64,000 nucleotides of DNA from assembly GCF_002001045.1 (NCBI RefSeq), contig NZ_MUNR01000014.1, forward strand, positions 682,001 through 746,000. Reading direction: 5' to 3'. The position numbers were made by a program, and so were the translations under genes. Each line of letters begins with the position of its first letter. Within the stretch, counting starts at the first letter, position 1. Below the pieces are notes generated by a model, which saw only the letters and a list, made by a program, of their open reading frames with translations, searched no databases and had not been told where the DNA came from. Positions 11,891-54,436 of the stretch are shown here, one piece after another. This DNA is from Rhodanobacter sp. C01 (GTDB taxonomy: Bacteria; Pseudomonadota; Gammaproteobacteria; Xanthomonadales; Rhodanobacteraceae).

Positions 11891-11941
11891 CGGGACGCCA
11901 CAGAGCGATGGTGGGCCATTGTAGCCGCCCATGGCTGCGAC

Positions 11942-13108: not shown

Positions 13109-13272
13109 TGGCGCAATCGTGGCAAGATGTTGCGCGTACCAAGTCTGCCAGAAATCCATTCCTCCGCCTTCGCTCGAAGCTCCTGTTTTCTCTGGCTGTT
13201 TGCATGGATGCGTTGCCTGAAGCGACCTATAAAGAAGCAACCTGACGTGTTCGACAATTGAGGAACTGAACG

Positions 13273-14010: not shown

Positions 14011-14120
14011 TGCTCGCTGCGTCATGGCGTGGGCAACCCGATAGCGACAAAAAAGCCGGGATGTGGGCCGATCGGCCATAATGGGCGTTCTACCCCGGAA
14101 TTGCAGAAGCCATCCCACGC

Positions 14121-14978
14121 ATGAAAACCCCCAAGGGACTGCAGGATCTGATCGATGAAGGCGTGATCGACCAGGTGCTGCGACCGCTGAAGAGCGGCAA
14201 GGAAGCCTCCGTCTACGTCGTCCGTTCGGGTGATGACATCCGTTGCGCCAAGGTCTACAAGGACATGGCCCAGCGCAGCTTCCAGCAGCGCGTGCAGTAT
14301 CAGGAAGGTCGCAAGGTACGTGGCAGCCGGCAGGCGCGCGCGATGGGCAAGGCGACGAAGTTCGGGCGTAAGGAAGCCGAGGCGGCCTGGAAGAATGCCG
14401 AAGTCGACGCGCTGTACCAGCTGACTGCGGCCGGCGTGCGTGTGCCGAAGCCGTACGGCTATTTCAACGGCGTGCTGGTGATGGAGCTGGTCACCGATGC
14501 GGATGGTCATTCGGCCCCGCGGCTGGGTGAAGTGGAGCTGTCGGCGGACACCGCCCGTGAATACCACCGTTTCCTGATGCAGCAGGTGGCGCGGATGCTG
14601 TGCGTCGGCCTGATCCATGGCGACCTGTCCGAATACAACGTGCTGGTCGGGCCACAGGGGCCGGTGATCATCGATCTGCCGCAGGCGGTCAGCGCCTCCG
14701 GCAACAACGCCGCCCGTGCCATGCTGCGAAGAGACGTGGGCAATATCACGATCAGCCTGTCACGTTTCGCGCCGGAACTGCTGGATACCTACTACGGCGA
14801 GGAAATGTGGGCGCTGTACGAGCTGGGAGAGTTGCATCCGGACAGCGAGCTCACCGGCCATTTTGAATTCGACGAGCGCATCGCCGATGTCGACAGCGTG
14901 ATGCAGTCGATCATCGACGCGCGGGAAGAGGCGATCATTCGCCAGCAGGGCCGCGATGAGGCGGCGCAGCAGGATTGA
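14121..14978 (+). CDS. RIO1-family serine protein kinase
   Basis: A 285-residue RIO-type atypical kinase. The nucleotide-binding part includes LKSGKEASVYVVRSG (glycine-loop equivalent) and CAKVYKD with the ATP-contacting Lys. The catalytic loop is LIHGDLSEYNVL with Asp168 and Asn173, and the metal-binding motif IIDLPQAV has Asp185. RIO kinases are best known in eukaryotic and archaeal ribosome maturation; the bacterial branch is poorly understood. The C-terminal tail (~250-285) is acidic and Gln-rich. The gene is apparently monocistronic. Confidence 0.9.
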   Translation: MKTPKGLQDLIDEGVIDQVLRPLKSGKEASVYVVRSGDDIRCAKVYKDMAQRSFQQRVQYQEGRKVRGSRQARAMGKATKFGRKEAEAAWKNAEVDALYQLTAAGVRVPKPYGYFNGVLVMELVTDADGHSAPRLGEVELSADTAREYHRFLMQQVARMLCVGLIHGDLSEYNVLVGPQGPVIIDLPQAVSASGNNAARAMLRRDVGNITISLSRFAPELLDTYYGEEMWALYELGELHPDSELTGHFEFDERIADVDSVMQSIIDAREEAIIRQQGRDEAAQQD

Positions 14979-42671: not shown

Positions 42672-42862
42672 ACCACCGGCTGTCTGGTCGCCACATGACG
42701 TGGCTACGGTCACTGGTATGTCAAAGTCGGGTGGCAAGCTGGGTTGGCCGCGTCTGGCCCTGTCACATCCCCACTGCCATGCCGGCACGGGGTTACCATG
42801 TCGATTCTTGTGACAGTTCCCGGGCTGCGCGATCTCTCTGACCGGATCATGGATTTGCACCA

Positions 42863-45028
42863 ATGAACAGCCGCATCATCCGCGAGACCCTGCCGCCAGA
42901 CGCCTCCGTGCCAGCCGCCAACGATGCATTGCCATCCGCGACGCCGCCGACGGTGGATCTGGGTGACAGCCGGTTGTACATCCATCGCGAACTGTCCCAG
43001 CTGCAGTTCAATATCCGCGTGCTCGACCAGGCGCTGGATGAGCGCACGCCGCTGCTGGAGCGGTTGAAGTTCCTGCTGATCTTCTCGCGCAACATGGACG
43101 AGTTCTTCGAGATCCGCGTGGCCGGGCTGAAAGGCCAGATCGCACTGGATCACGAGCTGATCGGTCCGGATGGCATTCCGCCGCGCCGCGCGCTGGCCGA
43201 GATCAGCGAGATCGCGCACAAGCAGATCGAACGGCAGTACGCGATCCTCAACGAACGCATCCTGCCGGAGCTGGCCGGGCAGGGCATTCGCATCGTCCGC
43301 CGCACGCAGTGGACGCACCGGCAGAAGCTGTGGGTGCGCCGCTATTTCCGCGAGGAAGTAGCACCGCTGATCACGCCGATCGGCCTGGATCCGACCCATC
43401 CATTCCCGCTGCTGGTCAACAAGAGTCTGAACTTCATCGTGCGGCTGGATGGTATCGATGCGTTCGGCCGCGACTCCGGCCTGGCGATCGTGCCGGCGCC
43501 GCGCGTGCTGCCGCGGCTGATCCGCATGCCGCTGGAAATCTGCGAGGGCGGTGACAACTACGTGCTGTTGTCCTCGATGATTCATGCCCACGCCGAGGAG
43601 CTGTTTCCCGGCATGACGGTGCTCGGCTGCTACCAGTTCCGGCTGACCCGCAACGCCGACCTCACGCTCGATCCCGAGGACGTCGAGGACCTGGCGCTGG
43701 CCTTGCGCGGCGAACTTTACTCACGTCGCTTCGGCGACGCGGTGCGGCTGGAAGTGGCCGACAACTGCCCCAAGGACCTGACCGATTATCTGCTCAAGCA
43801 GTTCGGCCTCAACGAATCGGAATTGTACGAAGTGAACGGTCCGGTCAACCTGGCGCGGCTGTTCCGCATCGCCAGCGAGGCGGGCTATCCGCAGTTGCAA
43901 TACCCCTCGTTCACGCCGGCGCTGCCGAAGTCGCTCAAGCACGCCGAAGACCTGTTCCAGGTGATCGGCAAGCAGGACGTGCTGCTGCTGCATCCGTACG
44001 AATCGTTTTCGCCGGTGGTCGACTTGCTGCGCCAGGCAGCGAAGGACCCGCAGGTGCTGGCGATCAAGCAGACGCTGTATCGCACCAACGCGAACTCGGA
44101 AATCGTCGATGCCCTGGTCGACGCGGCGCGCGCCGGCAAGGAAGTGACGGCCGTGGTCGAGTTGCGCGCACGCTTCGACGAAGAATCGAACCTCTCGCTC
44201 GCCTCACGGCTGCAGCAGGCCGGGGCGATGGTGATCTATGGCGTGGTGGGCATCAAGACGCACGCCAAGCTGATGCTGATCCAGCGCCGCGAAGGCACCG
44301 AACTGGTGCGCTACGCGCATCTGGGCACTGGCAACTACCACACCGGCAACGCGCGCCTGTACACCGACTACAGTCTGCTCACCTCCGACGAGGCCTTGTG
44401 CGAGGACGTGCACAAGCTGTTCAGCCAGCTCACCGGCATGGGCAAGGTGTTGCGCATGAAGAAGTTGCTGCATGCACCGTTCACGCTGAAGAAGGCCCTG
44501 CTCGAGCTGATCGCGCGCGAGACTGCGCACGCCACTGCCGGCAAGCCGGCGCAGATCATCATCAAGGTCAACGCGCTGACCGAACCGAAAGTGATCCGTG
44601 CGTTGTACAAGGCCAGCATCGCCGGCGTGCACGTCGAGCTGATCGTGCGCGGCGTCTGCTGCCTGCGCCCCGGCGTGGAAGGCGTCTCCGAGAACATCCG
44701 CGTGCGTTCGATCATCGGACGCTTCCTCGAACATAGCCGCGCCTACTGGTTTGCCAACGACGGCGACCCGCAGTTGTATCTGGCCAGTGCCGATCTGATG
44801 GAACGCAACCTGGATCGCCGCGTCGAATCCGCGTTCCCGCTTGAAGGCAAGAAACTGCAGCAGCGCGTACGCAATACACTGGATCTCTATCTCGGCGACA
44901 ACACCAGCGCATTGCTGCTGCAGCCTGACGGCCAGTACCTGCGTGCGCCCGTGGCCAGCGGCGAGCCCGCCCGCAACGTGCAGGCCGAGTTGCTGGAGAA
45001 GCTGTGCGGGGTGGCCGCCAAGCCCTAG
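42863..45028 (+). CDS. ppk1: Polyphosphate kinase 1
   Basis: A 721-residue PPK1 with the N, H, C1 and C2 domains. Landmarks are YIHRELSQLQFNIRVLDQA, SRNMDEFFEIRVAGLKGQ, the phosphorylated His467 in GVVGIKTHAKLML, YAHLGTGNYHTGNARLYTD, and NRRVES-like DRRVESAFPLEG near the end. It reversibly polymerises the gamma-phosphate of ATP into polyphosphate. The ribosome site is weak. The stop (45028) marks the distal boundary of the integron array. Confidence 0.95.
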   Translation: MNSRIIRETLPPDASVPAANDALPSATPPTVDLGDSRLYIHRELSQLQFNIRVLDQALDERTPLLERLKFLLIFSRNMDEFFEIRVAGLKGQIALDHELIGPDGIPPRRALAEISEIAHKQIERQYAILNERILPELAGQGIRIVRRTQWTHRQKLWVRRYFREEVAPLITPIGLDPTHPFPLLVNKSLNFIVRLDGIDAFGRDSGLAIVPAPRVLPRLIRMPLEICEGGDNYVLLSSMIHAHAEELFPGMTVLGCYQFRLTRNADLTLDPEDVEDLALALRGELYSRRFGDAVRLEVADNCPKDLTDYLLKQFGLNESELYEVNGPVNLARLFRIASEAGYPQLQYPSFTPALPKSLKHAEDLFQVIGKQDVLLLHPYESFSPVVDLLRQAAKDPQVLAIKQTLYRTNANSEIVDALVDAARAGKEVTAVVELRARFDEESNLSLASRLQQAGAMVIYGVVGIKTHAKLMLIQRREGTELVRYAHLGTGNYHTGNARLYTDYSLLTSDEALCEDVHKLFSQLTGMGKVLRMKKLLHAPFTLKKALLELIARETAHATAGKPAQIIIKVNALTEPKVIRALYKASIAGVHVELIVRGVCCLRPGVEGVSENIRVRSIIGRFLEHSRAYWFANDGDPQLYLASADLMERNLDRRVESAFPLEGKKLQQRVRNTLDLYLGDNTSALLLQPDGQYLRAPVASGEPARNVQAELLEKLCGVAAKP

Positions 45029-45032
45029 GAAC

Positions 45033-45063
45033 GATCGGTTCGGCTTGAATGAATTGTCAGGTG
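45033..45063 (-). repeat. Truncated attC remnant at the array end
   Basis: Read on the minus strand, CCTGACAATTCATTCAAGCC parallels the first half of the complete attC sites (CCTAACTACTCGTTCAAGGC). The second half is missing; the ppk1 stop codon lies 5 bases away. It marks the old distal end of the array. Confidence 0.55.
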
Positions 45064-45392
45064 TCACCAGCCCGAAGCGGAACCAGGAAATCCGATATCG
45101 GCTCGAGGATCAATTCTGGCAGGCTCTCGGCGATGGATTCGCGCAACTGCTGCCAGGCTTCAGGATCGACAGACGTGCGAGCGAGCCCTTCAGCCTTTGC
45201 AGCAGCGGACGGCCACTGCGTATAGCTGTACCAGATGTTGTCTGGGCCACGGTGCAAGCGCGAACCCAACGAACCTCGCTCGGTCAGTTGTAACTGAGTG
45301 ATTCGCGACCAGGCCTGGACAAAAGTCTCTTCGGACCCAGGATGCAGGCGCCAGCGGTAGATGGCGCAGAACGCGGGACAGTCATCGCTCAT
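45057..45392 (-). CDS. ABM-domain protein, last integron cassette
   Basis: A 111-residue protein that resembles the antibiotic-biosynthesis-monooxygenase (ABM, dimeric alpha-beta barrel) family: FCAIYRWRLHPGSEETFVQAW at the start, GSLGSRLHRGPDNIWYSYTQW in the middle, then a helical end. Such proteins are often small oxygenases or stress proteins; the role is unknown. Its stop lies in the attC remnant, so it is likely the most distal cassette. No attC separates it clearly from the next gene. Confidence 0.7.
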   Translation of the reverse strand: MSDDCPAFCAIYRWRLHPGSEETFVQAWSRITQLQLTERGSLGSRLHRGPDNIWYSYTQWPSAAAKAEGLARTSVDPEAWQQLRESIAESLPELILEPISDFLVPLRAGDT

Positions 45393-45448
45393 ATTTCTCC
45401 CGTCGGTGCGGCAGTCTTGCTGATATCCACCATGGCGAATATCGGTTG

Positions 45449-46117
45449 TCAGGCGTCATTGTGCCCTTGGCGCCGGAGTACAACGTGGGTGGCTTTCCCC
45501 GACGCGACGAACTGAACGCATTCGTATCCCAGGGTGCGCACGTCAATCCCCTCGAACAGTCGCTCTCCACTGCCAAGCAGGACCGGTGAGATAGCGATAT
45601 GCAACTCATCGATGAGGCCTGTACGAAGATATTGCTGGATAGTGTGGACTCCGCCGCCAATGCGCACATCCATTCCGTTGGCTGCGTCGCGTGCCCGGTC
45701 AAGCGCCTCGTGTATACCGCCTGTGACGAAGTGGAATGTCGTTCCACCTTCCATCTGGATGGGCGGGCGCGCGTGATGAGTCAGGATGAAAGCAGGAACG
45801 TGATAGGGCGGGTTGTCCCCCCACCAGCCTTTCCAGTTCATGTCGGGCCAGGAACCGCGAATCGGTCCGAACATGTTTCTTCCGAGAATCCAGGCGCCAA
45901 CATTCTTGAAGCCTCGCGCAGCGAAGTCGTCATCGATTCCCGTTGCGCCATCGTTGGCGCCAAACAGGATCTGTTGGAACGTGCGTGTCGGGACCAACCA
46001 CTGGTGCAAATCTGTTCCGCCCACGCCGAGCGGATTCCCGATGTCCTGATTCGGACCAGCCGCGTATCCGTCAAGCGCGATGGTAAAGCTCTCAACTCGG
46101 ACGCGTGTCATTTTCAT
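45449..46117 (-). CDS. RibD C-terminal / dihydrofolate-reductase-like cassette protein
   Basis: A 222-residue protein of the RibD_C/DHFR-like fold: TIALDGYAAGPNQ near the start, GAWILGRNMFGP, PAFILTHHARPP, the IGGGVHTIQQYL motif and IDELHIAISPVLLGSGERLF. Members are predicted NADPH-dependent reductases; the substrate is unknown. The ATG at 46117 has AAGGAAGG just upstream. The stop reads GCCTGAC, an attC-like inverse core, but the rest of an attC is not visible below it. Confidence 0.8.
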   Translation of the reverse strand: MKMTRVRVESFTIALDGYAAGPNQDIGNPLGVGGTDLHQWLVPTRTFQQILFGANDGATGIDDDFAARGFKNVGAWILGRNMFGPIRGSWPDMNWKGWWGDNPPYHVPAFILTHHARPPIQMEGGTTFHFVTGGIHEALDRARDAANGMDVRIGGGVHTIQQYLRTGLIDELHIAISPVLLGSGERLFEGIDVRTLGYECVQFVASGKATHVVLRRQGHNDA

Positions 46118-46135
46118 GCCTTCCTTTCGATTGAT

Positions 46136-46192
46136 GCCTGACGCTGGAGTCAAGCAATGACGAAGCCGTCCGCCTTGAACGAGATGTTGGGC
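46136..46192 (-). repeat. attC site
   Basis: 57 bases with ends GCCTGAC (46136-46142, plus-strand reading) and GTTGGGC (46186-46192) and the shared CCGTCCGCCTTGAACGA centre. The left arm is altered (CAAGCAATGACG). A second attC end fragment, ending GTTAGGT at about 46209, follows directly. Confidence 0.8.
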
Positions 46193-46258
46193 GGACGCGA
46201 ATGGTTAGGTGGCAAGAGCAAGTGAATGGACTAGGGCGACTTGAAGTTTCCTCCTGCT

Positions 46259-46318
46259 GCCTAACGCGCTAATCAAGCGGACCGCTGTAGCCGGGTCCGC
46301 TTGAAGGAAGGGTTGGGC
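46259..46318 (-). repeat. attC site
   Basis: 60 bases with ends GCCTAAC (46259-46265) and GTTGGGC (46312-46318) and a different stem-loop from the main family. Only 66 bases separate it from the attC at 46136, so no gene fits between. Confidence 0.8.
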
Positions 46319-46366
46319 AGCGGGCGCTTAGATACAGCCGATCTTCAGGCGGATGGATTCTGCCAT

Positions 46367-46735
46367 TCACGCTCCACCCGCGTAGAAATATTCCTCGCGT
46401 ACGATCTTTCCATCCTGAATGGTGAAGAGTCCAACTTCGTCCATCTTCATTCTCCGGCCGGAGGGCTTGTTCGTTACGTCGTATTGAAATCCGACAACGA
46501 ACCTATTGCCATGGGGCCACGGACCCGTGACAGAGGCCGAATGGATTTCGTGATTGGCACGCCACCATTCGCCCTTCGCCTTGATGGCTGCAAGGCCTCT
46601 TGTTTCTTGCTCTGCGCCTGGCATCGTAATCGCTTCTACGCTCACAGCGTCGGAAGCGTACAACGCCTTCGCCTCATCGTTCTTTCCTTGCTTGCAGAGG
46701 TCCACCAGCTTGTTGGCAATATCGAGAGTGTTCAT
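46367..46735 (-). CDS. NTF2-like (SnoaL/ketosteroid-isomerase type) cassette protein
   Basis: A 122-residue protein of the NTF2-like superfamily: N-terminal helices (IANKLVDLCKQGKNDEAKAL) with YASDAVSVEAI, a central WWRANHEIHSASVTGPWP, a FVVGFQYDVTN strand, and GLFTIQDGKIVREEYFY at the end, a typical SnoaL-like close. Catalytic or binding function is unknown. The ATG at 46735 has GGAAGGAA upstream. Its attC is at 46259-46318. Confidence 0.8.
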   Translation of the reverse strand: MNTLDIANKLVDLCKQGKNDEAKALYASDAVSVEAITMPGAEQETRGLAAIKAKGEWWRANHEIHSASVTGPWPHGNRFVVGFQYDVTNKPSGRRMKMDEVGLFTIQDGKIVREEYFYAGGA

Positions 46736-46911
46736 GCGTTTTCCTTCCGGTCGAAGTGAGAGATTCGGGCCTCCAAATTGGAGTGTTGGCCTTGTCCCAA
46801 GCGATTGTTGACGAGTCACGCTGCATCACCATCGACGCGGCGCCGTCAAAGAGTTTCCAGCAGACCTGCTGACAACATGGTGTCAGGAGAGATCAAGACG
46901 AGATGAAAGAC

Positions 46912-46990
46912 GGCTAACGCCTTGTTCTGGCGCCAAAGCGAGTTGGCGCGGTGGTCGTGCAAGCAAGCGTCGTGGCAATGCCCCTTGGTC
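46912..46990 (-). repeat. Divergent attC-like region
   Basis: Minus-strand reading ends in AACAAGGCGTTAGCC, which resembles the right half of an attC (GTTAGCC core), with inverted GGCGCCA elements before it. The left end is not clear. It lies where an attC is expected after the MazG-like gene. Confidence 0.4.
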
Positions 46991-47005
46991 GCTCAGCAAC
47001 AGTTT

Positions 47006-47332
47006 TTATGTTTCGAGTTCCTTGGATACATATTCCATTAGTCCTTTAATATTCTTGGAGAACTCCGCCTCCAGATCAATGCCGCATTTATTGGCAAGAA
47101 CGATAACCGACCACAGACAATCTGATAATTCATGGCCTAGTTTTGATTTGAAATCGTCGATGTTGCGAATACCTGCATTCGCCTGAATCAGTTTTGCCAA
47201 ATCACCGATGTCTCCTACGAATCCGAGCGCCAGTTCTTCCGTGCTCCAAACTCGACCATACAACTTGATTTCGAGCTCCTCATAAAGCTCGTTGAGTTTT
47301 AGCGCGGATTCTTCCAATTCTCTATATTTCAT
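47006..47332 (-). CDS. MazG-like nucleotide pyrophosphohydrolase-domain cassette protein
   Basis: A 108-residue all-helical protein resembling MazG-type NTP pyrophosphohydrolases: ALGFVGDIGDLAKLIQ replaces the usual ExxE(x12)ExxD helix start, and KLGHELSDCLWSVIVLANKC gives the second E/D pair. Some canonical acidic residues look substituted, so activity is uncertain. Base composition is clearly more AT-rich than the rest of the window, suggesting an outside origin. The start is taken at the ATG at 47332; an in-frame extension to 47398 is possible. Confidence 0.65.
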   Translation of the reverse strand: MKYRELEESALKLNELYEELEIKLYGRVWSTEELALGFVGDIGDLAKLIQANAGIRNIDDFKSKLGHELSDCLWSVIVLANKCGIDLEAEFSKNIKGLMEYVSKELET

Positions 47333-47425
47333 GTTTGATCTCAGTGCTGGTGGAAACATGATGCTTGACATGTAGCCTGCGGGGAGACGTTCCCTCAATG
47401 GAAGGTTCAGGCATCAGCTGCGGAG

Positions 47426-47995
47426 TCATGGGTGGAGCTTTTCGCCGTTGTTGAGCATTTCGACGAACTGAGCGATCTTCTTTGCGCGGGTCTCCGGTTT
47501 TTTCACGTTCTGGATCCTGAACAGGACAGCGTACCGATTCCGACTGTCGAGCGTCGCAAAGAAGGCCTTTGCTTTCGGATTCGCTTCAAGCGCCTCCAGC
47601 AAGTCACCTGGGACGGTTGCATTGCTCGCGGATGAATAAGCGGCATCCCAACGACCGTCCTGCTTGGCTCGATTGATCTCGTCCAGGCCGGCCCGGCGCA
47701 TTCGCCCCGATGCAATCAGAGCTTCCGCCTTCGCCCTGTTGATCTTCGACCAAATGCTCCTGGCGGCTCTAGGCGTAAATCGCTGAAGCCAATGGTGCGC
47801 GCTCTCTGCCTGCTTCTGACCGTCGACCCACCCGTAGCACAGGGCACTTTCCAGCGCTTCGGCGTAGGAGACGGTTGCATCGGCTGCACTTTTCTTCGCC
47901 AGGCGGAGCCACACACCTGACGAGGTACTCCCGCTTCGCTCAAGCCAAGCCTCCCACTTTGCCTGTGTTGCGAAGCTGAGTTTTGGGTCGTCCAT
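47426..47995 (-). CDS. YdeI/OmpD-associated family cassette protein
   Basis: A 189-residue protein matching the YdeI/OmpD-associated family (COG4430): WEAWLERSGSTSSGVWLRLAKK, SYAEALESALCYGWVDGQKQ, FTPRAARSIWSKINRAKAEA, a WDAAYSS segment, LEALEANPKAKAFFATLD and NRYAVLFRIQNVKKPETRAK at the end. Function is unknown. The upstream attC is at 48011-48067, but no attC is evident between this gene and the MazG-like gene, so these two may travel together. Confidence 0.85.
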   Translation of the reverse strand: MDDPKLSFATQAKWEAWLERSGSTSSGVWLRLAKKSAADATVSYAEALESALCYGWVDGQKQAESAHHWLQRFTPRAARSIWSKINRAKAEALIASGRMRRAGLDEINRAKQDGRWDAAYSSASNATVPGDLLEALEANPKAKAFFATLDSRNRYAVLFRIQNVKKPETRAKKIAQFVEMLNNGEKLHP

Positions 47996-48010
47996 AGAGG
48001 GCTGGCTGAT

Positions 48011-48067
48011 GCCTGACGCTGGAGTTAAGCGGTACCGGAGGCGTCCGCCTTGAACGAGTAGTTAGGC
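48011..48067 (-). repeat. attC site
   Basis: 57 bases with ends GCCTGAC and GTTAGGC. It keeps GCTGGAGTTAAGCGG and GTCCGCCTTGAACGA; the loop region differs (TACCGGAGGC). Confidence 0.9.
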
Positions 48068-48071
48068 CGGC

Positions 48072-48419
48072 CTAGGAGCTCGACCGCCGAATGAGCTCTA
48101 AGATGAGTTGTGGTTGGTATGTTGCCCACCAACCGAACAAGCCTAGCGTGATGCTGCCAACGATACCGAAGCCAGCTGCAGCAATGCCACGTTGCAATCG
48201 CTTGCGCCAAAACAACCAGACGCACACGACCAAAACCGGCAAGCCCAAGCACAGGTAGTAGAACGAGAATACGACCTTGGCTTGAGGTGGAAGTTGGCCA
48301 GAAACAGGCGCATAGAAGGCGATACAACCTGGAACCAAAACGAACGCCAAAAATACGATGATGATGGCTGGAAGAAGGCCAGTCAGAAGCAGCACGATGT
48401 CCTTGGTGCTCGATTTCAT
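48072..48419 (-). CDS. Cassette-encoded small membrane protein
   Basis: A 115-residue protein with three hydrophobic segments (~8-30, ~48-70, ~80-100) and a basic WFWRKRLQRG-type loop between the second and third. No family recognised. The ATG is only 3 bases after the GTTAGGC core of the upstream attC. Confidence 0.65.
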   Translation of the reverse strand: MKSSTKDIVLLLTGLLPAIIIVFLAFVLVPGCIAFYAPVSGQLPPQAKVVFSFYYLCLGLPVLVVCVWLFWRKRLQRGIAAAGFGIVGSITLGLFGWWATYQPQLILELIRRSSS

Positions 48420-48422
48420 AAA

Positions 48423-48479
48423 GCCTAACGCTGGAGTTAAGCGGCGGCGAAGCCGTCCGCCTTGAACGAGTGGTTAGGC
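48423..48479 (-). repeat. attC site
   Basis: 57 bases with ends GCCTAAC and GTTAGGC and the main-family stem. The stop TAA of the 198-residue gene at 48474 lies within the GTTAGGC end (TAA of GCCTAAC on the minus strand). Confidence 0.92.
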
Positions 48480-49070
48480 CGCAGAGCTAGGAACAATGCC
48501 TGCGGACGTGGCTCCGTGAACTTCCGGGCCGAACCATAACGCTGCCCCTTCTTGGACAGATGTATACGCATGACGCAAGACTGGGCGAGCATGCAGCTTT
48601 GCGCAAGCCATTTTGTTGCGTATATGGCGTTGGACTTGCCCCGACAGTTTTGATAGTTCGCGCCAGTTGCAATCGCCAGCTGGGTGGATGGAGCTTTGCC
48701 GCGCACCAGCTTCGCTCCAGTGGCCGAAGTGCGTGTGATGAATGACGCCTTCTTGTATGCCACTGAGGTACAACTGCATCAGGCCAGCACCTTCAACTGA
48801 ATAGCGATGCGGGCTTTGGGGCAACCCAGCCATATCTATGCGACGAATCACGGGCTCAACCATCACCGACGGCGACCAAAGTTGGAGATATGCTGCTCGA
48901 TAGTTGCCAAGTGCAATGACCTCCTCCAGAGCAGGCAGAGAGCGGAATTGACGCACGGGCAAATTGTGCTCGGACGATGATTCGTATACGACGATGTCTG
49001 TCTCACCAAAAAGAAACCGGAAGAGTTCTCGAAGGTCGTCTGCAGCAGCGTAAAAGTCGAGATTTGCCAT
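48474..49070 (-). CDS. Cassette-encoded hypothetical protein (198 aa)
   Basis: A 198-residue soluble-looking protein. The start MANLDFYAAADDLRELFRFL and FGETDIVVYESSSEHN resemble small proteins of unknown function found in other bacteria; I cannot name a domain. The C-terminal third is richer in Ala, His and Gly. It ends exactly on the TAA supplied by attC. Confidence 0.65.
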   Translation of the reverse strand: MANLDFYAAADDLRELFRFLFGETDIVVYESSSEHNLPVRQFRSLPALEEVIALGNYRAAYLQLWSPSVMVEPVIRRIDMAGLPQSPHRYSVEGAGLMQLYLSGIQEGVIHHTHFGHWSEAGARQSSIHPAGDCNWRELSKLSGQVQRHIRNKMACAKLHARPVLRHAYTSVQEGAALWFGPEVHGATSAGIVPSSAA

Positions 49071-49085
49071 TGCCGTTGGTATGTA

Positions 49086-49142
49086 GCCTAACGCTGGAGT
49101 TAAGCGGCGGCGAAGCCGTCCGCCTTGAACGAGTAGTTAGAG
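49086..49142 (-). repeat. attC site
   Basis: 57 bases with ends GCCTAAC and GTTAGAG and the main-family stem. The gene at 49137 stops within it. Confidence 0.92.
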
Positions 49143-49439
49143 CGCATTACCTGGATGCAGGTAGCACCAGCAGCTATTGCAACAGATGCTTGATTGATCA
49201 AGCTGCAACTGTGGCGAAATGGCGGCTAGAGCACTCTTTGATATTTGTGGAAGCTCTCCGGACACGAACGCAAAAACTTCGGCGCTACGGTTGCAGCCTA
49301 CCAACATCTTGATGATATGTAGCTTGTCAAAGCCAGCATCGCCGTCGATGAGCGGACGCATGTGGACGCATAGATGATGATCCCATCGACTTGGATCGAG
49401 GTCATCGCACTTTAACCCGCGAAAAGTCGTAATGGTCAT
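49137..49439 (-). CDS. Cassette-encoded hypothetical protein (100 aa)
   Basis: A 100-residue protein of unknown function: N-terminal RGLKCDDLDPSRWDHHLCVH, a middle KLHIIKMLVGCNRSAEVF and a C-terminal Cys cluster (ICCNSCWCYL, four Cys in eight residues). The ATG is 3 bases after the upstream attC core, and the stop TAA is part of the downstream attC. Confidence 0.6.
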   Translation of the reverse strand: MTITTFRGLKCDDLDPSRWDHHLCVHMRPLIDGDAGFDKLHIIKMLVGCNRSAEVFAFVSGELPQISKSALAAISPQLQLDQSSICCNSCWCYLHPGNAL

Positions 49440-49442
49440 GAG

Positions 49443-49499
49443 CTCTAACGCTGGAATTGAGCGGCGGCGAAGCCGTCCGCCTCGAATGATTGGTTAGGT
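49443..49499 (-). repeat. attC site
   Basis: 57 bases with ends CTCTAAC and GTTAGGT. It has two changes in the stem (GGAATTGAGCGG and CCTCGAATGAT). Confidence 0.9.
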
Positions 49500-49937
49500 G
49501 CCGTTTCCATATCCATGAGCCAGGAGAAGCATTGTCTCTACGTTGCTCTTCAAGTTCGGTTCTTCGCAATCGCCAACTAAGTCTGAAAGAAATTCTACAA
49601 CGACTTGTTTGCCAAAGTTTCGGCACCAATACCATGGGAGCTCTTCGACGCCGCGATCCCAAATGGTTGCCGCAGCGAAAACAGATCCGTCCAGAGCAAG
49701 AGGCGACGGTGGAGCAACCGAGAGCAAAAGTTTCCCGGCGAGTCGCTGCCGCTCGAATTTGTTCTCTTGCAAAGAAGGATCGAAGAAAAATGAGAATAGC
49801 CCGAAGAAAACTTCTCTTGATGGTGCATCGCTGCAGTCAATTGCAAGTTGCTGACACTGTTGATGGTTATGAAATCCATAGCGGTCAGCTGCCGATTTGA
49901 CAGCCTCTGTGATTTTTTCCCGATCCCATGAATTCAC
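49494..49937 (-). CDS. Cassette-encoded hypothetical protein (147 aa)
   Basis: A 147-residue soluble protein, acidic overall: DREKITEAVKSAADRYGF, FGLFSFFFDPSLQENKFERQ and VVVEFLSDLVGDCEEPN are its main segments. No family recognised. The start is GTG at 49937; AGGT of the upstream attC core is placed as a possible ribosome site about 6 bases away. The stop TAA belongs to the downstream attC. Confidence 0.6.
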   Translation of the reverse strand: MNSWDREKITEAVKSAADRYGFHNHQQCQQLAIDCSDAPSREVFFGLFSFFFDPSLQENKFERQRLAGKLLLSVAPPSPLALDGSVFAAATIWDRGVEELPWYWCRNFGKQVVVEFLSDLVGDCEEPNLKSNVETMLLLAHGYGNGT

Positions 49938-49943
49938 AGAGGC

Positions 49944-50006
49944 ACCTAACGCTGGAGTTAAGCGGCGCGCGGCTTTTCGCGCGTCCGCTTGGACGACGGG
50001 TTAGGT
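49944..50006 (-). repeat. attC site (63 bp variant)
   Basis: Ends ACCTAAC and GTTAGGT, with a longer loop (GCGCGCGGCTTTTCGCGCGT) than the 57-bp family. The gene at 49958 reads almost through it. Confidence 0.88.
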
Positions 50007-50362
50007 TGCTCGCCGATATGTTGGAGAGTCAACTCAATTTCGTTGATTAAATATGGCCACTGAAACTCAGGGTCTACCGAGAATTTGTTGCGGAGGTTGT
50101 TGAGTATGCGGCCTGTGACCTCGTAGTACCTTTTGAAGTGCCGCAGCTCGAAAACAACGGCCACCTGCCTGTCGATCCATGCGACTTGGGAGGCAGGATC
50201 CGGCTGAACAAGCTCTTTGATGAGCCGATGGTAAGCCTCGAACTCTTGCGCCCTTTGCTCGCGGCCGCGTACGAGAATGAACTGAATGGCCGACCACACA
50301 AACGCAATCGCGGCGCCCAAGGCGCTGAGAGCAGCTATGTTTTGGGCTAGCCATGCAGCCAT
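49958..50362 (-). CDS. Cassette-encoded single-pass membrane protein (134 aa)
   Basis: A 134-residue protein with one N-terminal membrane segment (AALSALGAAIAFVWSAIQFI), then a helical cytoplasmic part (EQRAQEFEAYHRLIKELVQ, RYYEVTGRILNNLRNKF). Its last ~17 residues (EQPNPSSKRTREKPRAA) are encoded by the attC itself and the TAA is in the distal attC arm. No family recognised, though the layout resembles DUF4760-type proteins. Confidence 0.6.
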   Translation of the reverse strand: MAAWLAQNIAALSALGAAIAFVWSAIQFILVRGREQRAQEFEAYHRLIKELVQPDPASQVAWIDRQVAVVFELRHFKRYYEVTGRILNNLRNKFSVDPEFQWPYLINEIELTLQHIGEQPNPSSKRTREKPRAA

Positions 50363-50370
50363 GCTTTAAA

Positions 50371-50427
50371 ACCTAACGCTTGAGTTAAGCGGCGGCGTAG
50401 CCGTCCGCCTTGAACGAGTAGTTAGAC
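50371..50427 (-). repeat. attC site
   Basis: 57 bases with ends ACCTAAC and GTTAGAC; stem GGCGGCGTAGCCGTCCGCC. Confidence 0.9.
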
Positions 50428-50440
50428 CCCTTGCGAGGGC

Positions 50441-50770
50441 CTACCACGGAGATTTAAGCCAATAGAAGCAGTGCGGACAATAGTCGATGTCTAGGGGTGA
50501 TGCCCGCTCGAATGGACTGACTGGAGTTTGGGAGCAGTGGGGGCAGACCAAGCTGACTCTCTCTGCGGCGCGAGCGATCATGAGGGCAAGAAAGAAAACA
50601 AGGAACAGGGCAACAATATAGATGTTTTGCAGATAGACGCCGGCAGCTATACAGGCCAACGCTGCCAAGCCGATGGAGGGCTGCACAAGTTTGTATCGCT
50701 TGCGATACGTCGATGTCGCTTGTGCCCAAGCGGCAATTACTTGTGGATCATTTACGGCTCGAATCGGCAT
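50441..50770 (-). CDS. Cassette-encoded membrane protein with Zn-ribbon-like tail
   Basis: A 109-residue protein: a basic N-terminus, two adjacent membrane segments (~32-46 and ~50-66), then LVCPHCSQTP and DYCPHCFYWL, two CPxC knuckles about 25 residues apart that would bind one zinc in the cytoplasm. No named family. The ATG is 3 bases after the attC core. Confidence 0.65.
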   Translation of the reverse strand: MPIRAVNDPQVIAAWAQATSTYRKRYKLVQPSIGLAALACIAAGVYLQNIYIVALFLVFFLALMIARAAERVSLVCPHCSQTPVSPFERASPLDIDYCPHCFYWLKSPW

Positions 50771-50773
50771 TGG

Positions 50774-50829
50774 CTCTAACGCCTGAGTTAAGCGGCGCCG
50801 GAGGCGTCCGCTTGAATGATTAGTTAGGT
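50774..50829 (-). repeat. attC site
   Basis: 56 bases with ends CTCTAAC and GTTAGGT; variant stem GGCGCCGGAGGCGTCCGC. Confidence 0.88.
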
Positions 50830-50831
50830 GC

Positions 50832-51095
50832 CTAACCTAGAAGAACAATGAAGGGCCACGCAATACCAACAAGCGCCAGCATGAGAAAGAATGCCGTAAG
50901 AAGTGAATTTTTAGCGCCCGCAACGCACATAAGCCCCCATGGCAAGCACACCAATGGCCCAGCTAGTGCGAAGCCAATGACGGAACGAGCAAGAAAAATT
51001 AGAGCGACCGAAACGGCTAGCCCGATCATGGCTGTAGCAAAAAGCTTCTTACGGTAGGGAAGCAATGATGCTGAAAGCCGCTGAAGGGATGTCAT
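50832..51095 (-). CDS. Cassette-encoded small membrane protein (87 aa)
   Basis: An 87-residue protein with a basic N-terminus (LLPYRKKLF) and three hydrophobic segments (~18-36, ~40-58, ~66-85). No family recognised. The ATG is 4 bases after the attC core. Confidence 0.6.
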   Translation of the reverse strand: MTSLQRLSASLLPYRKKLFATAMIGLAVSVALIFLARSVIGFALAGPLVCLPWGLMCVAGAKNSLLTAFFLMLALVGIAWPFIVLLG

Positions 51096-51099
51096 AGAT

Positions 51100-51156
51100 A
51101 CCTAACGCTGGAGTTAAGCGGCGGCGAAGCCGTCCGCCTTGAACGAACTGTTAGGC
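51100..51156 (-). repeat. attC site
   Basis: 57 bases with ends ACCTAAC and GTTAGGC; main-family stem. Confidence 0.92.
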
Positions 51157-51161
51157 GATTG

Positions 51162-51407
51162 CTAGTTGCGATATGAGTGCCACGCAAGCCAAGCAAAGCC
51201 GATGAGCCCGGCGATGTACGCGAAAAGCATAAACCCATACTGCGAAGGATGTGCCGCGCTTGAATAGTTGGTGTCGGTGACCCACCAAGCGAGACTTGGG
51301 CCTGGAGTCACACCTGACCTGAGTGATGAAAGGATTAACGCGCCGCTGGAAATTGCGCCCAGCAAGCCAGTGACGATCAGGAACCATCGCTTTACCGAGT
51401 CGTTCAT
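51162..51407 (-). CDS. Cassette-encoded small membrane protein (81 aa)
   Basis: An 81-residue protein with two membrane segments (~9-28 and ~58-76) joined by a ~30-residue polar loop. No family recognised. Unlike several neighbours it has its own ribosome site (GAGGGGAA) before the ATG and its own TAG stop before the attC. Confidence 0.62.
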   Translation of the reverse strand: MNDSVKRWFLIVTGLLGAISSGALILSSLRSGVTPGPSLAWWVTDTNYSSAAHPSQYGFMLFAYIAGLIGFAWLAWHSYRN

Positions 51408-51431
51408 TTCCCCTCGCTCCCTGTTCTTGGG

Positions 51432-51488
51432 GCCTAACGCTGGAGTTAAGCGGCGGCGTAGCCGTCCGCCTTGAACGAAATGTTAGAC
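51432..51488 (-). repeat. attC site
   Basis: 57 bases with ends GCCTAAC and GTTAGAC; stem with GGCGGCGTAGCCGTCC. Confidence 0.92.
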
Positions 51489-51953
51489 CGCATGCGCGCG
51501 GTGCCATGCTTGCGAGTCTTTGACGAACTGACCCTTGAACGCGTCGTCCACGAACGCGCGTGCAGGAACGATTAGAGCATTGCCCGTAGTGCTGGTGATT
51601 ACCACAGAGTCTCTTGCTTCTTGAACCGATGCAATCTCCGCCCAGCGTCGTGAGCCAGATTTGTTGCCAATTTTGGTTGACCAGCCATCCGGCCCGACAA
51701 GAAGAGTGCGTTCTTTGCTCTTGAACATGACTTGCGGCCACAGAGCAAAGAAGAGCGTTACAGCTGGCAAAGCACCAAAGAAGTACAGCACGTAGGAGCG
51801 GATTGCAGGAGGAACACCAAGTATGTCGGGCAGCACAAACGCGAGTACAGCGGCGACAAGCAGATGCACGCGCCAAAGACGCGCTCTCCAAGCGTCCCAG
51901 TAAAAGCGCCAGACTTCGGATCGAGATGAGCGATAGCTAAGGGAGTAGTTCAT
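51483..51953 (-). CDS. YcxB-like membrane protein in integron cassette
   Basis: A 156-residue protein with two membrane segments (~28-48, ~52-72) followed by a small beta domain ending VPARAFVDDAFKGQFVKDS, which fits the YcxB-like family, whose last motif is typically a P-x-R-x-F segment. Function is unknown. The ATG is 3 bases after the upstream attC core; the stop TAA is the attC one. Confidence 0.65.
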   Translation of the reverse strand: MNYSLSYRSSRSEVWRFYWDAWRARLWRVHLLVAAVLAFVLPDILGVPPAIRSYVLYFFGALPAVTLFFALWPQVMFKSKERTLLVGPDGWSTKIGNKSGSRRWAEIASVQEARDSVVITSTTGNALIVPARAFVDDAFKGQFVKDSQAWHRAHAV

Positions 51954-51956
51954 GCG

Positions 51957-52013
51957 GTCTAACGCTGGAGTTAAGCGGCGGCGAAGCCGTCCGCCTTGAA
52001 CGAGTTGTTAGAG
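51957..52013 (-). repeat. attC site
   Basis: 57 bases with ends GTCTAAC and GTTAGAG; main-family stem. Confidence 0.92.
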
Positions 52014-52036
52014 CATATTGCCAAATCGATTGGTAA

Positions 52037-52363
52037 TCATGAAGTTGCTTTGAGCAACCGCTTTAGCTCTGATTCTGTGACTCCGGGCGCATCCTCAGCC
52101 AGCCAGTGCTCAAACTTTTCTTTGTGAGAAAAATGGTGCATGTGGCCTTCGATGACATGATCTTTTTGCGTACCGAACTTGCATACGAAGACTAGGTGAT
52201 TGCGGGCTGCGGCTACCAATTTGATGTGCGTAAGAGGAGGCGGATCTGCTTTTGGCGCTCTTGCGGCTTTGTCGGTGTACGGAGACGAGCCGAACAAGAG
52301 GTCACGTAGTTCTGGCGCGTGGCCTTGATTCAGAAGTGCTCGAATAATCTCGGCCTTTGCCAT
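52037..52363 (-). CDS. Cassette-encoded hypothetical protein (108 aa)
   Basis: A 108-residue soluble protein: KAEIIRALLNQGHAPELRDLL helix, a Lys/Pro loop, THIKLVAAARNHLVFVCKFG strand pair, a His-rich HVIEGHMHHFSHKEKFEHW segment (five His in 13 residues) and an acidic helical end. No family recognised; the His cluster might bind metal. The ATG is 6 bases after the attC core. Confidence 0.6.
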   Translation of the reverse strand: MAKAEIIRALLNQGHAPELRDLLFGSSPYTDKAARAPKADPPPLTHIKLVAAARNHLVFVCKFGTQKDHVIEGHMHHFSHKEKFEHWLAEDAPGVTESELKRLLKATS

Positions 52364-52369
52364 GATGAG

Positions 52370-52426
52370 CTCTAACGCTGGAGTTAAGCGGCGGCGAAGC
52401 CGTCCGCCTTGAACGAAATGTTAGGC
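52370..52426 (-). repeat. attC site
   Basis: 57 bases with ends CTCTAAC and GTTAGGC; main-family stem. It belongs to the second copy of the duplicated cassette. Confidence 0.92.
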
Positions 52427-52738
52427 CGCGGCTGCGACCAGCAGAACCTCTGGACAAATGAGCTGCAACTTTGCCACTTGCTCGGTTGAGAACGTACTGC
52501 CGGAAAGTACGAGTGATGCTAGTGCCGGAATGCGGGCAATTGCCTCAACAGCAGCAAAAGAGAGATTGGATGCGTTGAGCGCAATTTGCTGCACGCCTCG
52601 AAGATCTTGAAGGCCAGCAACCTGAGTATCAGTGACGGGAACCTTCATAAGGGTAACGGCGAAGATCTCCGGCTCCCAGACATAACCACCGCCGAGGGCT
52701 TCGACATGAGAAAGAATTTCTTCGTTGTTTGCTGCCAT
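52421..52738 (-). CDS. Cassette-encoded LRR-like protein, copy 2
   Basis: A 105-residue protein identical to the one at 52815-53132. The spacing of Leu/Ile in LQDLRGVQQIALNASNLS and IPALASLVLSGSTFS resembles a short stack of leucine-rich repeats. There is no signal peptide or membrane segment. The stop TAA lies in attC. Function is unknown; it may be a protein-interaction module. Confidence 0.7.
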   Translation of the reverse strand: MAANNEEILSHVEALGGGYVWEPEIFAVTLMKVPVTDTQVAGLQDLRGVQQIALNASNLSFAAVEAIARIPALASLVLSGSTFSTEQVAKLQLICPEVLLVAAAA

Positions 52739-52763
52739 GGGACCGTCAACTAGCTCCTATGAG

Positions 52764-52820
52764 GCCTAACGCTGGAGTTAAGCGGCGGCGAAGCCGTCCG
52801 CCTTGAACGAAATGTTAGGC
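52764..52820 (-). repeat. attC site
   Basis: 57 bases with ends GCCTAAC and GTTAGGC; identical to the 52370 site except for the outermost bases at the left end. It separates the two copies of the duplicated cassette. Confidence 0.93.
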
Positions 52821-53132
52821 CGCGGCTGCGACCAGCAGAACCTCTGGACAAATGAGCTGCAACTTTGCCACTTGCTCGGTTGAGAACGTACTGCCGGAAA
52901 GTACGAGTGATGCTAGTGCCGGAATGCGGGCAATTGCCTCAACAGCAGCAAAAGAGAGATTGGATGCGTTGAGCGCAATTTGCTGCACGCCTCGAAGATC
53001 TTGAAGGCCAGCAACCTGAGTATCAGTGACGGGAACCTTCATAAGGGTAACGGCGAAGATCTCCGGCTCCCAGACATAACCACCGCCGAGGGCTTCGACA
53101 TGAGAAAGAATTTCTTCGTTGTTTGCTGCCAT
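52815..53132 (-). CDS. Cassette-encoded LRR-like protein, copy 1 (first cassette)
   Basis: The cassette nearest intI, and so probably the best expressed. The product is 105 residues, the same as at 52421-52738, with an LRR-like Leu pattern and no known family. The whole 394-base unit (gene plus attC) appears to be repeated without change. The stop TAA lies in attC. Confidence 0.7.
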   Translation of the reverse strand: MAANNEEILSHVEALGGGYVWEPEIFAVTLMKVPVTDTQVAGLQDLRGVQQIALNASNLSFAAVEAIARIPALASLVLSGSTFSTEQVAKLQLICPEVLLVAAAA

Positions 53133-53157
53133 GGGACCGTCAACTAGCTCCTATGAG

Positions 53158-53323
53158 GCCTAACGCTAAGTAGACCCCATATCCGGGGTATAGCGTCGGA
53201 TCGTTCAGCATCACACCCGTTGCCGTCAAGCCATATTCCTACAGGCGATCAGCAACTTGCCCTGTTCTGTCAGGTAGGTCTAGTCGAGGAGACTGCCTGG
53301 AAAACAGCAGGGAGTGGCTGGAT
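53158..53323. other. attI-like region and intI upstream region
   Basis: The last cassette junction is GCCTAAC at 53158-53164 (GTTAGGC on the minus strand), after which attC symmetry ends; this is where attI must lie. The segment to the intI start has a short hairpin (ACCCC/GGGGT arms, about 53175-53190). The cassette promoter Pc (minus strand) and the intI promoter should be here or within the start of intI, but I cannot point to convincing -35/-10 pairs. Confidence 0.6.
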
Positions 53324-54331
53324 ATGTCTTATGACCCTGGAAGTAGCGGTATATCTGCTGATGGCGAAGTGCCGCGCGTGCCGCGGCTTTTCGATGAAGT
53401 TCGGCGCCACATGCGGTTGAAACATTACAGTTTGCGCACCGAGAAGGTGTATCTCGCCTGGATGCGCCGGTTCATATTGGCTAACAACAAACGGCACCCG
53501 CGCGAGATGGGCGCGGTCGAGGTTGAGCGTTTTCTGAGCAGTCTCGCGGTCGAGGGAGATGTGGCGGCCAGCACACAGAATCAGGCGTTGTCGGCGTTGC
53601 TGTTTCTATATCGGCAAGTGCTTGGCATGGACTTGCCGTGGATGGACAGCATGGTGCGGGCCAAGCGCCCGCGCCGGTTGCCGACGGTGCTGTCGGTGGA
53701 AGATACGCGACGGTTGCTGGCTGCGATGGATGGGCGGCCGTGGCTCTTGGCCAGCCTGCTTTACGGCACGGGCATGCGCCTGATGGAGTGTTTGCGCTTG
53801 CGCATCAAGGATGTCGATTTCCGCCGCGGCGAAATTACCATACGAGACGGCAAGGGTGGCAAGGATCGTCACACCATGTTGCCGCGCGCACTCGTCGAAC
53901 CGCTGCAGCGCGAGATTGAACGTGCGCGCTGCCTTCATCAGGAGGATCTTGCAGGCGGTTTCGGTGAGACGCGATTGCCTCATGCGCTCGCTCGAAAATA
54001 TCCCAGGGCCGCACGGGAACTCGGCTGGCAGTTTGTGTTTCCGTCGCTGCAGCGCTCACGTGATCCGCTGGATGGCACCTTTCGCCGGCATCACTTCGAT
54101 GAGCGGATCCTGGCCAGGGCAATGAAGCGTGCAAGGGTGCTGGCGGATATCGCCAAGCCGGTCAGTGCACACACCTTGCGCCACTGCTTCGCCACGCATT
54201 TGCTGGAGGCGGGTTATGACGTGCGTACCGTGCAGGAGTTGCTCGGTCACAAGGATGTCGCCACCACGCAAATCTACACGCATGTGCTCAACCGCGGCGG
54301 ACAGGGCGTGCTGAGTCCGCTGGATCGTTGA
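53324..54331 (+). CDS. intI: Integron integrase
   Basis: A 335-residue tyrosine recombinase. Catalytic residues are Arg152 ([14 protein letters not shown]), His283 and Arg286 ([14 protein letters not shown]), His309 ([10 protein letters not shown]) and Tyr318 (QIYTHVLN). The IntI-specific insert is present at ~217-241 ([19 protein letters not shown]), which distinguishes integron integrases from XerC/D. The N-terminal half has [18 protein letters not shown] and [15 protein letters not shown], also typical. Nothing disrupts the frame, so it looks functional. It is transcribed away from the cassettes, the usual integron arrangement. Confidence 0.96.
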
Positions 54332-54352
54332 GGTTCGGCTCGCGCCGCCGGC

Positions 54353-54429
54353 TGTAGGAGCGCACCCTGTGCGCGAATGCTTTTCGCAAAATCACCTCAG
54401 AGCATTCGCGCACAGGGTGCGCTCCTACA
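54353..54429. repeat. REP-type palindrome 3
   Basis: Perfect 29-base arms (54353-54381, 54401-54429) containing TGTAGGAGCGCACCCTGTGC, with a 19-base loop. It lies between the convergent ends of intI and mfd and may end both transcripts. Confidence 0.85.
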
Positions 54430-54436
54430 TATGTCA

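Follow-up and report, generated by a model that had tools for sequence, protein, structure and literature searches.

The 64-kb window considered here, by which is meant the whole stretch of DNA that was analysed (C6:682001-746000 of a 3.98-Mb, 14-contig draft Rhodanobacter genome), harbors between ppk1 and mfd an integron integrase gene (intI), an attI core and, running leftward from it, an array with 14 attC sites and 17 genes, all of the latter on the minus strand. This is a complete chromosomal integron, which very probably belongs to a multi-address, cassette-trading system. An earlier note on the same DNA had described a complete chromosomal integron, and the intact intI, the attI, the 14 attC sites and a circle-type pairing of the R'' and R' cores all confirm that description. 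The same note called the integron sedentary and long-resident, a view that finds only partial support in comparisons with related genomes and with a second integron in the same genome.

The integron between ppk1 and mfd

The integrase gene is intact. Its product scores 481.5 bits against the NCBIfam integron integrase model TIGR02249 (cutoff 265, E 1.2e-144), and residues 25-335 align to IntI4 (PDB 2a3v, E 1.4e-90). All five IntI motif blocks are present, including QIYTHVL, and with them R152, K177/K180, H283, R286, H309 and Y318, the catalytic residues of such enzymes. The alignment to 2a3v has a gap of just one residue across the stretch around 210-240, presumably the integron-specific insert. 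The intact intI with catalytic motifs of the earlier reading is thereby borne out. The attI adjoins intI, and all 17 genes lie on the minus strand and run away from it. Among the 88 integrase loci compared, CTAAC is found 158-168 bp upstream of intI in 71, and five others end too early to judge. The flanks are housekeeping genes, and the plasmid collection returned a single record, covering 4% of the query, while the phage collection returned none. Neither a plasmid setting nor resistance cargo was found in this search, which covered the plasmid and phage collections and, for the cargo, the NCBIfam models, not transposon ends, in agreement with the earlier view that this is not a mobile resistance integron.

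The attC sites, whose exact number had been given before, form the homogeneous family that was claimed: 12 of the 14 are 56-57 bp long, one is 60 and one 63, and the alignment has a mean column identity of 78%. A covariance model, run with filters off, recovers all 14 on the + strand, the bottom strand as predicted, with scores of 41.2-86.9 bits, whereas the opposite strand scores at most 13.5 bits, and there is no further hit within the window at E <= 0.01. This recovery is partly circular, the model having been built from the same 14 sites. Independent support comes from 39 more matches elsewhere in the genome, which bring the total to at least 53 at E <= 0.001, a lower bound in that 150 of 4468 first-look candidates were scored; the model also gives 313 matches across 28 loci of other genomes.

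When folded as single-stranded DNA, the bottom strand does better than the top in all five attC sites tested of the 14. Support for the fold rests on a slid-register control, with 93.9% of positions paired against at most 47.6%, and on the pairing of each cassette with its own R', rather than on covariation. The latter is weak because the family is so homogeneous: four pairs show two-sided change, a value reached by 26 of 500 shuffles, and the percentage paired is reached by 66 of 500. In 11 of 12 cassettes, R'' pairs with the R' of its own cassette at all seven core positions, whereas full pairing with the R' of the adjacent (following) cassette is found in 3 of 12, or 4 if a G-T wobble is allowed. 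Pairing of this kind is the mark expected of cassettes that existed as circles before insertion.

Two further candidates were set aside, a degenerate attC at 46912-46948 (8.2 bits) and a whole attC at 44984-45044, at the end of ppk1 (6.4 bits), both no better than opposite-strand noise. An Rfam scan of 42800-56000 (E up to 1) gave six hits with no attC-type family among them; five are weak matches of the hairpin at 54350-54432 to miRNA/RNA-OUT models, far under the gathering scores, and the sixth, to a snoRNA model, lies within mfd. None of the six reaches its gathering score, and all can be put down to chance.

Other arrays in the same genome

The attC sites of the genome, at least 53, are distributed among the window (14), C6:326-333 kb (16), C1:45-49.5 kb (10), C13 (7), C10 (3), C14 (2) and C7 (one partial). 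A second complete integron is found on C1, where an intact intI at C1:43357-44310, with its own array, adjoins a 2960-residue glycosyl hydrolase 94 (GH94) gene. The two integrases are 66% identical, and their genes are 69% alike in DNA. The third array (L069, G000 C6:319500-339400, 6518-14442) holds 16 attC sites, or 17 in a separate count, and adjoins an MFS transporter gene. It has an attI and no integrase in the integrase search of this genome, and over 141 bp its proximal end shares 78% identity with the leader-attI region of the C1 integron; the array looks like a platform after loss of intI. Small integrase-less attC clusters elsewhere in the genome are matched by the same model. Near one scattered cluster (L072, G000 C13:72000-91900, 7791-8414) there is also a tandem repeat (about 159 bp) whose copies are about 74% alike.

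Cassettes shared between arrays

Three cassettes of the window, numbers 3, 4 and 7, recur in the C1 array with no mismatches over 413, 525 and 403 bp, respectively, and there they stand in the order 4-7-3. Two other genomes with two integrons each display the same kind of sharing. Genome G007 has four cassettes in common between its arrays (three at 100%, one at 99.1%) when counted by cassette, and seven shared stretches of 364-490 bp at 97.5-100% when compared as DNA, and G014 (Rhodanobacter sp. B04) has one. In all seven fully identical cassettes of the three genomes, identity extends beyond the cassette by 3-7 bp at its start and by 4-6 bp at its end. This overrun is no longer than in unrelated cassette pairs (medians 4-7), and identity ends at the G|TTAG crossover. 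Since identity is confined to these borders, each shared unit amounts to exactly one cassette, as opposed to a tract of homologous recombination, and sharing of this form is the apparent footprint of single-cassette site-specific recombination. Within the window array itself, cassette 2 is repeated without any change as cassette 1 (394 of 394 bp), and this tandem copy adjoins attI. It has the form of the "copy and paste" product that the available text of PMC8024014 reports for integrons.

The sharing was also counted among 34 arrays of the genus of at least 1.2 kb, in which a degenerate attC pattern cut out 256 cassettes from 27 arrays. Cassette pairs at least 99% identical make up 8 of 875 within genomes (3 of 9 array pairs) compared with 0 of 29,861 between genomes (0 of 342). 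The pattern finds 7 of the 10 C1 sites, omits first cassettes and yields no cassette in 7 of the 34 arrays, and integrase-less arrays, including the third array, lie outside this count. An earlier count, limited to arrays of at least 2.5 kb, gave 3 of 13 within-genome pairs of the genus and 0 of 393 between genomes, and its length cut hid a match in G015.

Integrases and their chromosomal addresses

IntI is found in 37 of 45 genomes of the genus (E <= 1e-80) and in 112 of 233 of the family (E <= 1e-60), and 8 of the 45 carry two to four matches at 1e-80. By downstream neighbor, 88 integrases divide into 10 at mfd, 12 at GH94, 6 at an address termed T and 60 elsewhere or undetermined. These labels were assigned by tblastn, which replaced a clustering of the longest neighboring open reading frame (ORF) that took wrong-frame ORFs in places. 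The neighbor names GH94 and MFS hold on checking. Address T is a 676-residue proline-rich gene whose product has no Pfam family, and the name "tonB" was withdrawn for this reason. Its loci are L095, L097, L100, L110, L113 and L163, the last with an integrase lineage that differs from the other five.

The integrase tree comprises 88 rows, after L083 and L088 were dropped as duplicates and rows under 250 residues were removed, and 35 of its 85 inner branches are poorly supported. It requires 18 changes among the four address labels, where the least possible is 3 and the shuffled mean 26.8, and nine changes among the three named addresses; the starred branches alone force at least 5 (mfd), 4 (GH94) and 3 (T). 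Addresses are thus clustered on the tree but far from a pattern of one address to one lineage.

The mfd address illustrates this in close species. The closest integrase, 95% identical, is that of Rhodanobacter sp. B04 at the same address. In terms of percent identity to the window for Mfd and IntI, the genomes with an integrase at mfd are G016 (98 and 65), G014 (96 and 95), G015 (95 and 68), G026 (92 and 76), G031 (91 and 65) and G020 (90 and 69), together with G023, where Mfd matches in two pieces (99 and 95; IntI 75), and G036, where the Mfd match is partial (93; IntI 67). Some relatives match Mfd in two pieces, at 94-99%. Among the other 44 genomes of the genus, none matches Mfd at full length, or Ppk1, better than G016 (96% for Ppk1), but its mfd-adjacent integrase is 83% identical to the C1 integrase of the present genome. 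The mfd address is common to close species, and the integrase lineage there differs among them. This and the three cassettes identical to those of the C1 integron, a sign of recent mobility, speak against the description as sedentary, which would have the platform held vertically at one address. In G024 (L222, ~4960-6380), mfd is followed by the last 54 bp of intI (91%) and four attC sites, and the genome has no intI at E <= 1e-60; the integrase has apparently been lost from the mfd address.

The genes ppk1 and mfd are visible neighbors in 4 of 45 genomes, a number that draft contigs may keep too low. The interval measures 9.4 kb in the present genome and 20.2 kb in G014; in G025 and G039 it is 2.0 and 1.4 kb, respectively. 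No attC match was found in the intervals of G025 and G039, so that the interval also exists without an integron. When the window cassettes were compared with the mfd array of B04, none matched at >=80% over >=200 bp, and the intI-attI stretch alone was alike; cassette 7 matches the second array of B04 at 95%. The stops of intI and mfd are 105 bp apart in the window (54332-54436), with a REP-like inverted repeat in the gap, and are separated by about 3 bp in B04. The start of a similar REP-like sequence follows intI at mfd in Rhodanobacter sp. C05 (L161).

What travels between addresses can be seen from pairs of integrases of one clade. In nine of nine chosen pairs at different addresses, homology starts 164-168 bp upstream of intI, at the attI crossover, and ends within -4 to +8 bases of the intI stop. 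Among eight pairs at the same address, homology continues past the stop in six and resumes after a gap in two. A left border at this point is to be expected, since the cassettes differ, and a right border of this kind would be seen at a new place for any gene whose end is conserved. These borders say that attI and intI travel together with little else, and they do not indicate a mechanism. Movement of the platform by a junction made by IntI at the 3' end of intI (...CTGGATCG|) is not claimed, conservation of the protein end being sufficient. Sequence information drops to 0.04 bits at the third base of the last codon of intI, and the position of the stop tracks the address, with one extra codon in 6 of 6 at T and none in 11 of 12 at GH94 and 8 of 10 at mfd.

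A proposed cassette-trading system and its alternatives

The proposed system would operate as follows. The 3' end of mfd would be a recurrent address, at which IntI inserts circular cassettes at attI by way of the folded bottom strand of attC, so that the newest cassette would adjoin intI. The integron of the window, the C1 integron by GH94, the third array with its attI and the small integrase-less clusters would together make up a multi-address system. As the attC type is shared, the integrase of either platform could act on the cassettes of the other, and cassettes would be copied between arrays one at a time. From the sequences we infer that both integrases are active, that either serves both arrays, and that the copying happened inside this lineage. 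A broader proposal, which we regard as tentative and somewhat doubtful, is that of a distributed integron, in which a portable attI-intI module of about 1.17 kb has been repeatedly installed and replaced at a few fixed addresses, and in which non-orthologous integrases act in trans, by means of a common attC type, on a shared and copied pool of cassettes.

Several observations weigh against a trading system of this kind. The entire case is built by reading sequences, and in a draft genome, repeats that are identical to one another may in principle have been put together wrongly. In the sharing count, one between-genome pair reaches >=97% and five reach >=90%; its array pairs are not independent, and several have just 1-3 cut-out cassettes. 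The six within-genome array pairs that share nothing all involve an integrase of about 50% identity (G022, G023), which the three sharing pairs do not, and this may be a real limit to cross-talk or chance. Those two genomes (L081-L083, L174-L177) have three and four integrases, some of them of the ~50% identical types. The same attC model fits their arrays, which share no cassette at >=97% with one another. With regard to the control of expression, there is no sigma-70-like promoter match in 52700-54450, and no exact CTGT-N8-ACAG, CTG-N10-CAG or TTAGTA-TACTAA LexA box in 53101-53400. According to the available text of PMC3108266, Xanthomonadaceae LexA proteins do not recognise the usual E. coli-like motif.

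A circulating common pool of cassettes does exist, and both integrons may have taken the same cassettes from it independently, with no copying in the cell. G015 (Rhodanobacter sp. C05, another species) carries cassette 4 at 100% identity over 533 bp, as a first cassette and so outside the sharing count. G014 matches part of the third array at 99.1% over 436 bp, likewise outside the count, and cassette 7 recurs at 94-95% in both G004 and G014; identical cassettes across species are also described for plant-associated bacteria in the accessible part of PMC11089894. Pool capture on its own is nevertheless unlikely, as sharing at >=99% is concentrated within genomes, the two known between-genome cases lying outside the count, and as all three cassettes common to the two arrays of this genome have no mismatch at all. 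Copying within the lineage is the better reading than a common pool alone. Homologous recombination or gene conversion between arrays might find short stretches of homology in the likeness of the attC repeats, but cassettes that move singly and in altered order, with no excess identity beyond the crossover in any of the seven identical cases, make it highly improbable. An assembly artefact, in which mis-resolved repeats placed identical cassettes in two contexts, is suggested by a draft of 14 contigs and by identical repeats of 403-525 bp. It is very hard to credit, in that each copy is bordered, right at the crossover, by different neighbors on either side, the cassettes follow one another in a different order, and the pattern recurs in two further genomes.

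There is, lastly, the possibility of an old and essentially static integron with most cassettes long resident, to which the housekeeping flanks, the closely related integrase of B04 at the same address and a distal 3 kb with few sites and a terminal attC fragment all lend some weight. It is quite unlikely for the integron as a whole, since the integrase lineage at mfd differs between species as close as G016, no window cassette recurs in the mfd array of B04 at >=80% over >=200 bp, and identical copies occur both in tandem and between arrays. The static account is already disfavored for the proximal cassettes, while for the distal 3 kb it may be true.

Cassettes and their cargo

The features of the locus are collected in Table 1. 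The earlier count of 17 genes agrees with the ORFs, but these are not 17 cassettes, since the 189-, 130- and 150-residue genes (46367-47995) share one 1.75-kb stretch with no recognisable attC between them. With this site-less stretch, the weakest attC (number 13) and an attC fragment by ppk1, the picture is of an older distal end, although the weak attC 8 sits in the middle of the array. The 66 bp between attC 13 and 14 (46193-46258) hold no ORF and include what resembles part of a further attC (CCTAACCATTC); they may be what is left of a cassette that was deleted or that had no gene.

The curated Pfam cutoff is passed by 4 of the 17 genes (ABM, RibD_C, SnoaL and OmdA), all of them distal; it is not reached by the YcxB-, MazG-, PAP2- and zinc-ribbon-like hits. 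No NCBIfam cutoff is passed by any of the 16 distinct cargo proteins. The products of cassettes 5, 6 and 12 are probably membrane proteins. An origin of the cargo in defence systems or phages was considered and set aside: for 10 of the 17 gene products, PADLOC gave no families (E up to 0.1) and PHROGs none (E up to 0.01), and phage DNA gave no match.

The earlier note had named two results that would speak against it, failure of the attC model on most repeats and the presence of the same genes in relatives that lack the repeats. The model works on all 14 sites. As to the genes, three cargo proteins were sought in relatives, those of 105, 108 and 156 residues; the first has no match in the other 44 genomes of the genus and no relative in a scan of viral contigs, and the others occur in 2 and 13 of 398 genomes of the order, their own included. 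Single-sequence structure models of the 105-residue protein (AlphaFold2; mean pLDDT 62.5, with a leucine-rich-repeat-like beta-alpha pattern at low confidence) and of the 108-residue protein (mean pLDDT 56.8) were judged too poor for a fold search.

Table 1. Features of the ppk1-mfd interval and its flanks, in window coordinates
Feature	Position	Strand	Evidence or remark
ppk1, distal flank of the array	42863-45028	+	Four Pfam domains of polyphosphate kinase
Short R''-L''-like fragment of a terminal attC	45040-45063	-	12 bp past ppk1 stop; repeat family D5
111-residue gene, antibiotic-biosynthesis-monooxygenase (ABM) domain	45057-45392	-	PF03992 E 3.6e-7
234-residue gene, RibD C-terminal (reductase) domain	45449-46153	-	PF01872 E 6.7e-18
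attC 14	46136-46192	-	67.6 bits
attC 13, divergent, 60 bp	46259-46318	-	41.2 bits; bottom strand folds better than top
150-residue gene, SnoaL-like	46367-46819	-	PF20409 E 1.3e-21
130-residue gene, weakly MazG-like	47006-47398	-	PF03819 E 0.0046, below curated cutoff
189-residue gene, YdeI/OmdA family	47426-47995	-	PF13376 E 6.7e-23
attC 12	48011-48067	-	75.8 bits
Cassette 12 gene, 115 residues	48072-48419	-	Hydrophobic by eye; PAP2_3 E 6e-4, below cutoff
attC 11	48423-48479	-	86.9 bits
Cassette 11 gene, 198 residues	48474-49070	-	No Pfam, NCBIfam, PADLOC or PHROG match
attC 10	49086-49142	-	81.7 bits
Cassette 10 gene, 100 residues	49137-49439	-	No Pfam, PADLOC or PHROG match
attC 9	49443-49499	-	77.7 bits
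Cassette 9 gene, 147 residues	49494-49937	-	No Pfam, NCBIfam, PADLOC or PHROG match
attC 8, longer, 63 bp	49944-50006	-	57.5 bits
Cassette 8 gene, 134 residues	49958-50362	-	No Pfam, NCBIfam, PADLOC or PHROG match
attC 7	50371-50427	-	80.1 bits
Cassette 7 gene, 109 residues, zinc-ribbon-like	50441-50770	-	PF13453 E 8e-4, below cutoff
attC 6	50774-50829	-	69.5 bits
Cassette 6 gene, 87 residues	50832-51095	-	Hydrophobic by eye; no match above curated cutoff
attC 5	51100-51156	-	83.5 bits
Cassette 5 gene, 81 residues	51162-51407	-	Hydrophobic by eye; no match above curated cutoff
attC 4	51432-51488	-	84.0 bits
Cassette 4 gene, 156 residues, YcxB-like	51483-51953	-	PF14317 E 2.3e-4, below cutoff
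attC 3	51957-52013	-	82.8 bits
Cassette 3 gene, 108 residues	52037-52363	-	In 2 of 398 order genomes, own included
attC 2	52370-52426	-	81.7 bits
Cassette 2 gene, 105 residues, genus-orphan	52421-52738	-	1 of 45 genus genomes (own)
attC 1	52764-52820	-	86.9 bits
Cassette 1 gene, identical copy of cassette 2 gene	52815-53132	-	Cassettes 394/394 bp
attI, GTTAGGC core (53158-53164) and leader to intI start	53158-53323	-	Core seen in sequence
intI, 335 residues, intact integron integrase	53324-54331	+	TIGR02249 E 1.2e-144; PDB 2a3v E 1.4e-90
Large inverted repeat (REP-like) between intI and mfd stops	54350-54432		Hairpin
mfd, integrase-side flank	54437-57982	-	TRCF, UvrB_inter, DEAD, Helicase_C, MFD_D3 and CarD domains

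Relation to known integrons

The best-known large integrons are those of Vibrio, where each cell has a single chromosomal platform, and the array of the Vibrio cholerae superintegron is much larger than the one described here. Integrons of the present kind are already known, and the new value lies in the multi-address, cassette-trading arrangement. With two intact integrases that are divergent, a single attC type, and cassettes that are identical between its two arrays, the genome amounts to a natural cross-talk experiment, in which one can ask whether one integrase is able to serve the array of the other, whether copying outruns cutting under natural conditions, and how, at a fixed address, one platform comes to replace another. 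A literature search, which for the most part left subscription papers uncovered and preprints wholly so, found no account of identical cassettes common to two chromosomal integrons of one genome. In an amplicon survey, Rhodanobacteraceae-type IntI was present in up to 92% of samples, according to the available text (PMC9176274). Ghaly et al. 2021, in the part available, assigned 19 of 108 resistance cassettes to this order by their attC (PMC8352920), and cassette exchange among the integrons of the order therefore bears on the origin of such cassettes.

The superintegron integrase of V. cholerae, IntI4/VchIntIA, can be aligned with the Rhodanobacter enzyme, which is of another lineage. Within the same order, the Xanthomonas integron at ilvD also combines a chromosomal intI with an attC array of mostly unknown cargo, and about half of the genomes have integrase-less attC clusters elsewhere; in the accessible text, intI is predominantly downstream of ilvD and is inherited vertically with rare exceptions (PMC12444791). 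In Rhodanobacter, by contrast, the addresses (mfd, GH94 and others) hold non-orthologous integrases, of which this genome has two that are intact. Different chromosomal integron integrases in one strain have been reported for Shewanella, whose authors knew of no earlier case, and the available part of that account describes no identical cassettes between the integrons of one strain (PMC9229058), whereas here there are three with exact borders. In class 1 integrons, an identical cassette is re-inserted by attI after semi-conservative excision, as the available text has it (PMC8024014). That system is experimental, plasmid-borne and under drug selection, whereas the putative copying described here is chromosomal and natural, and would take place between two integrons as well as within one.

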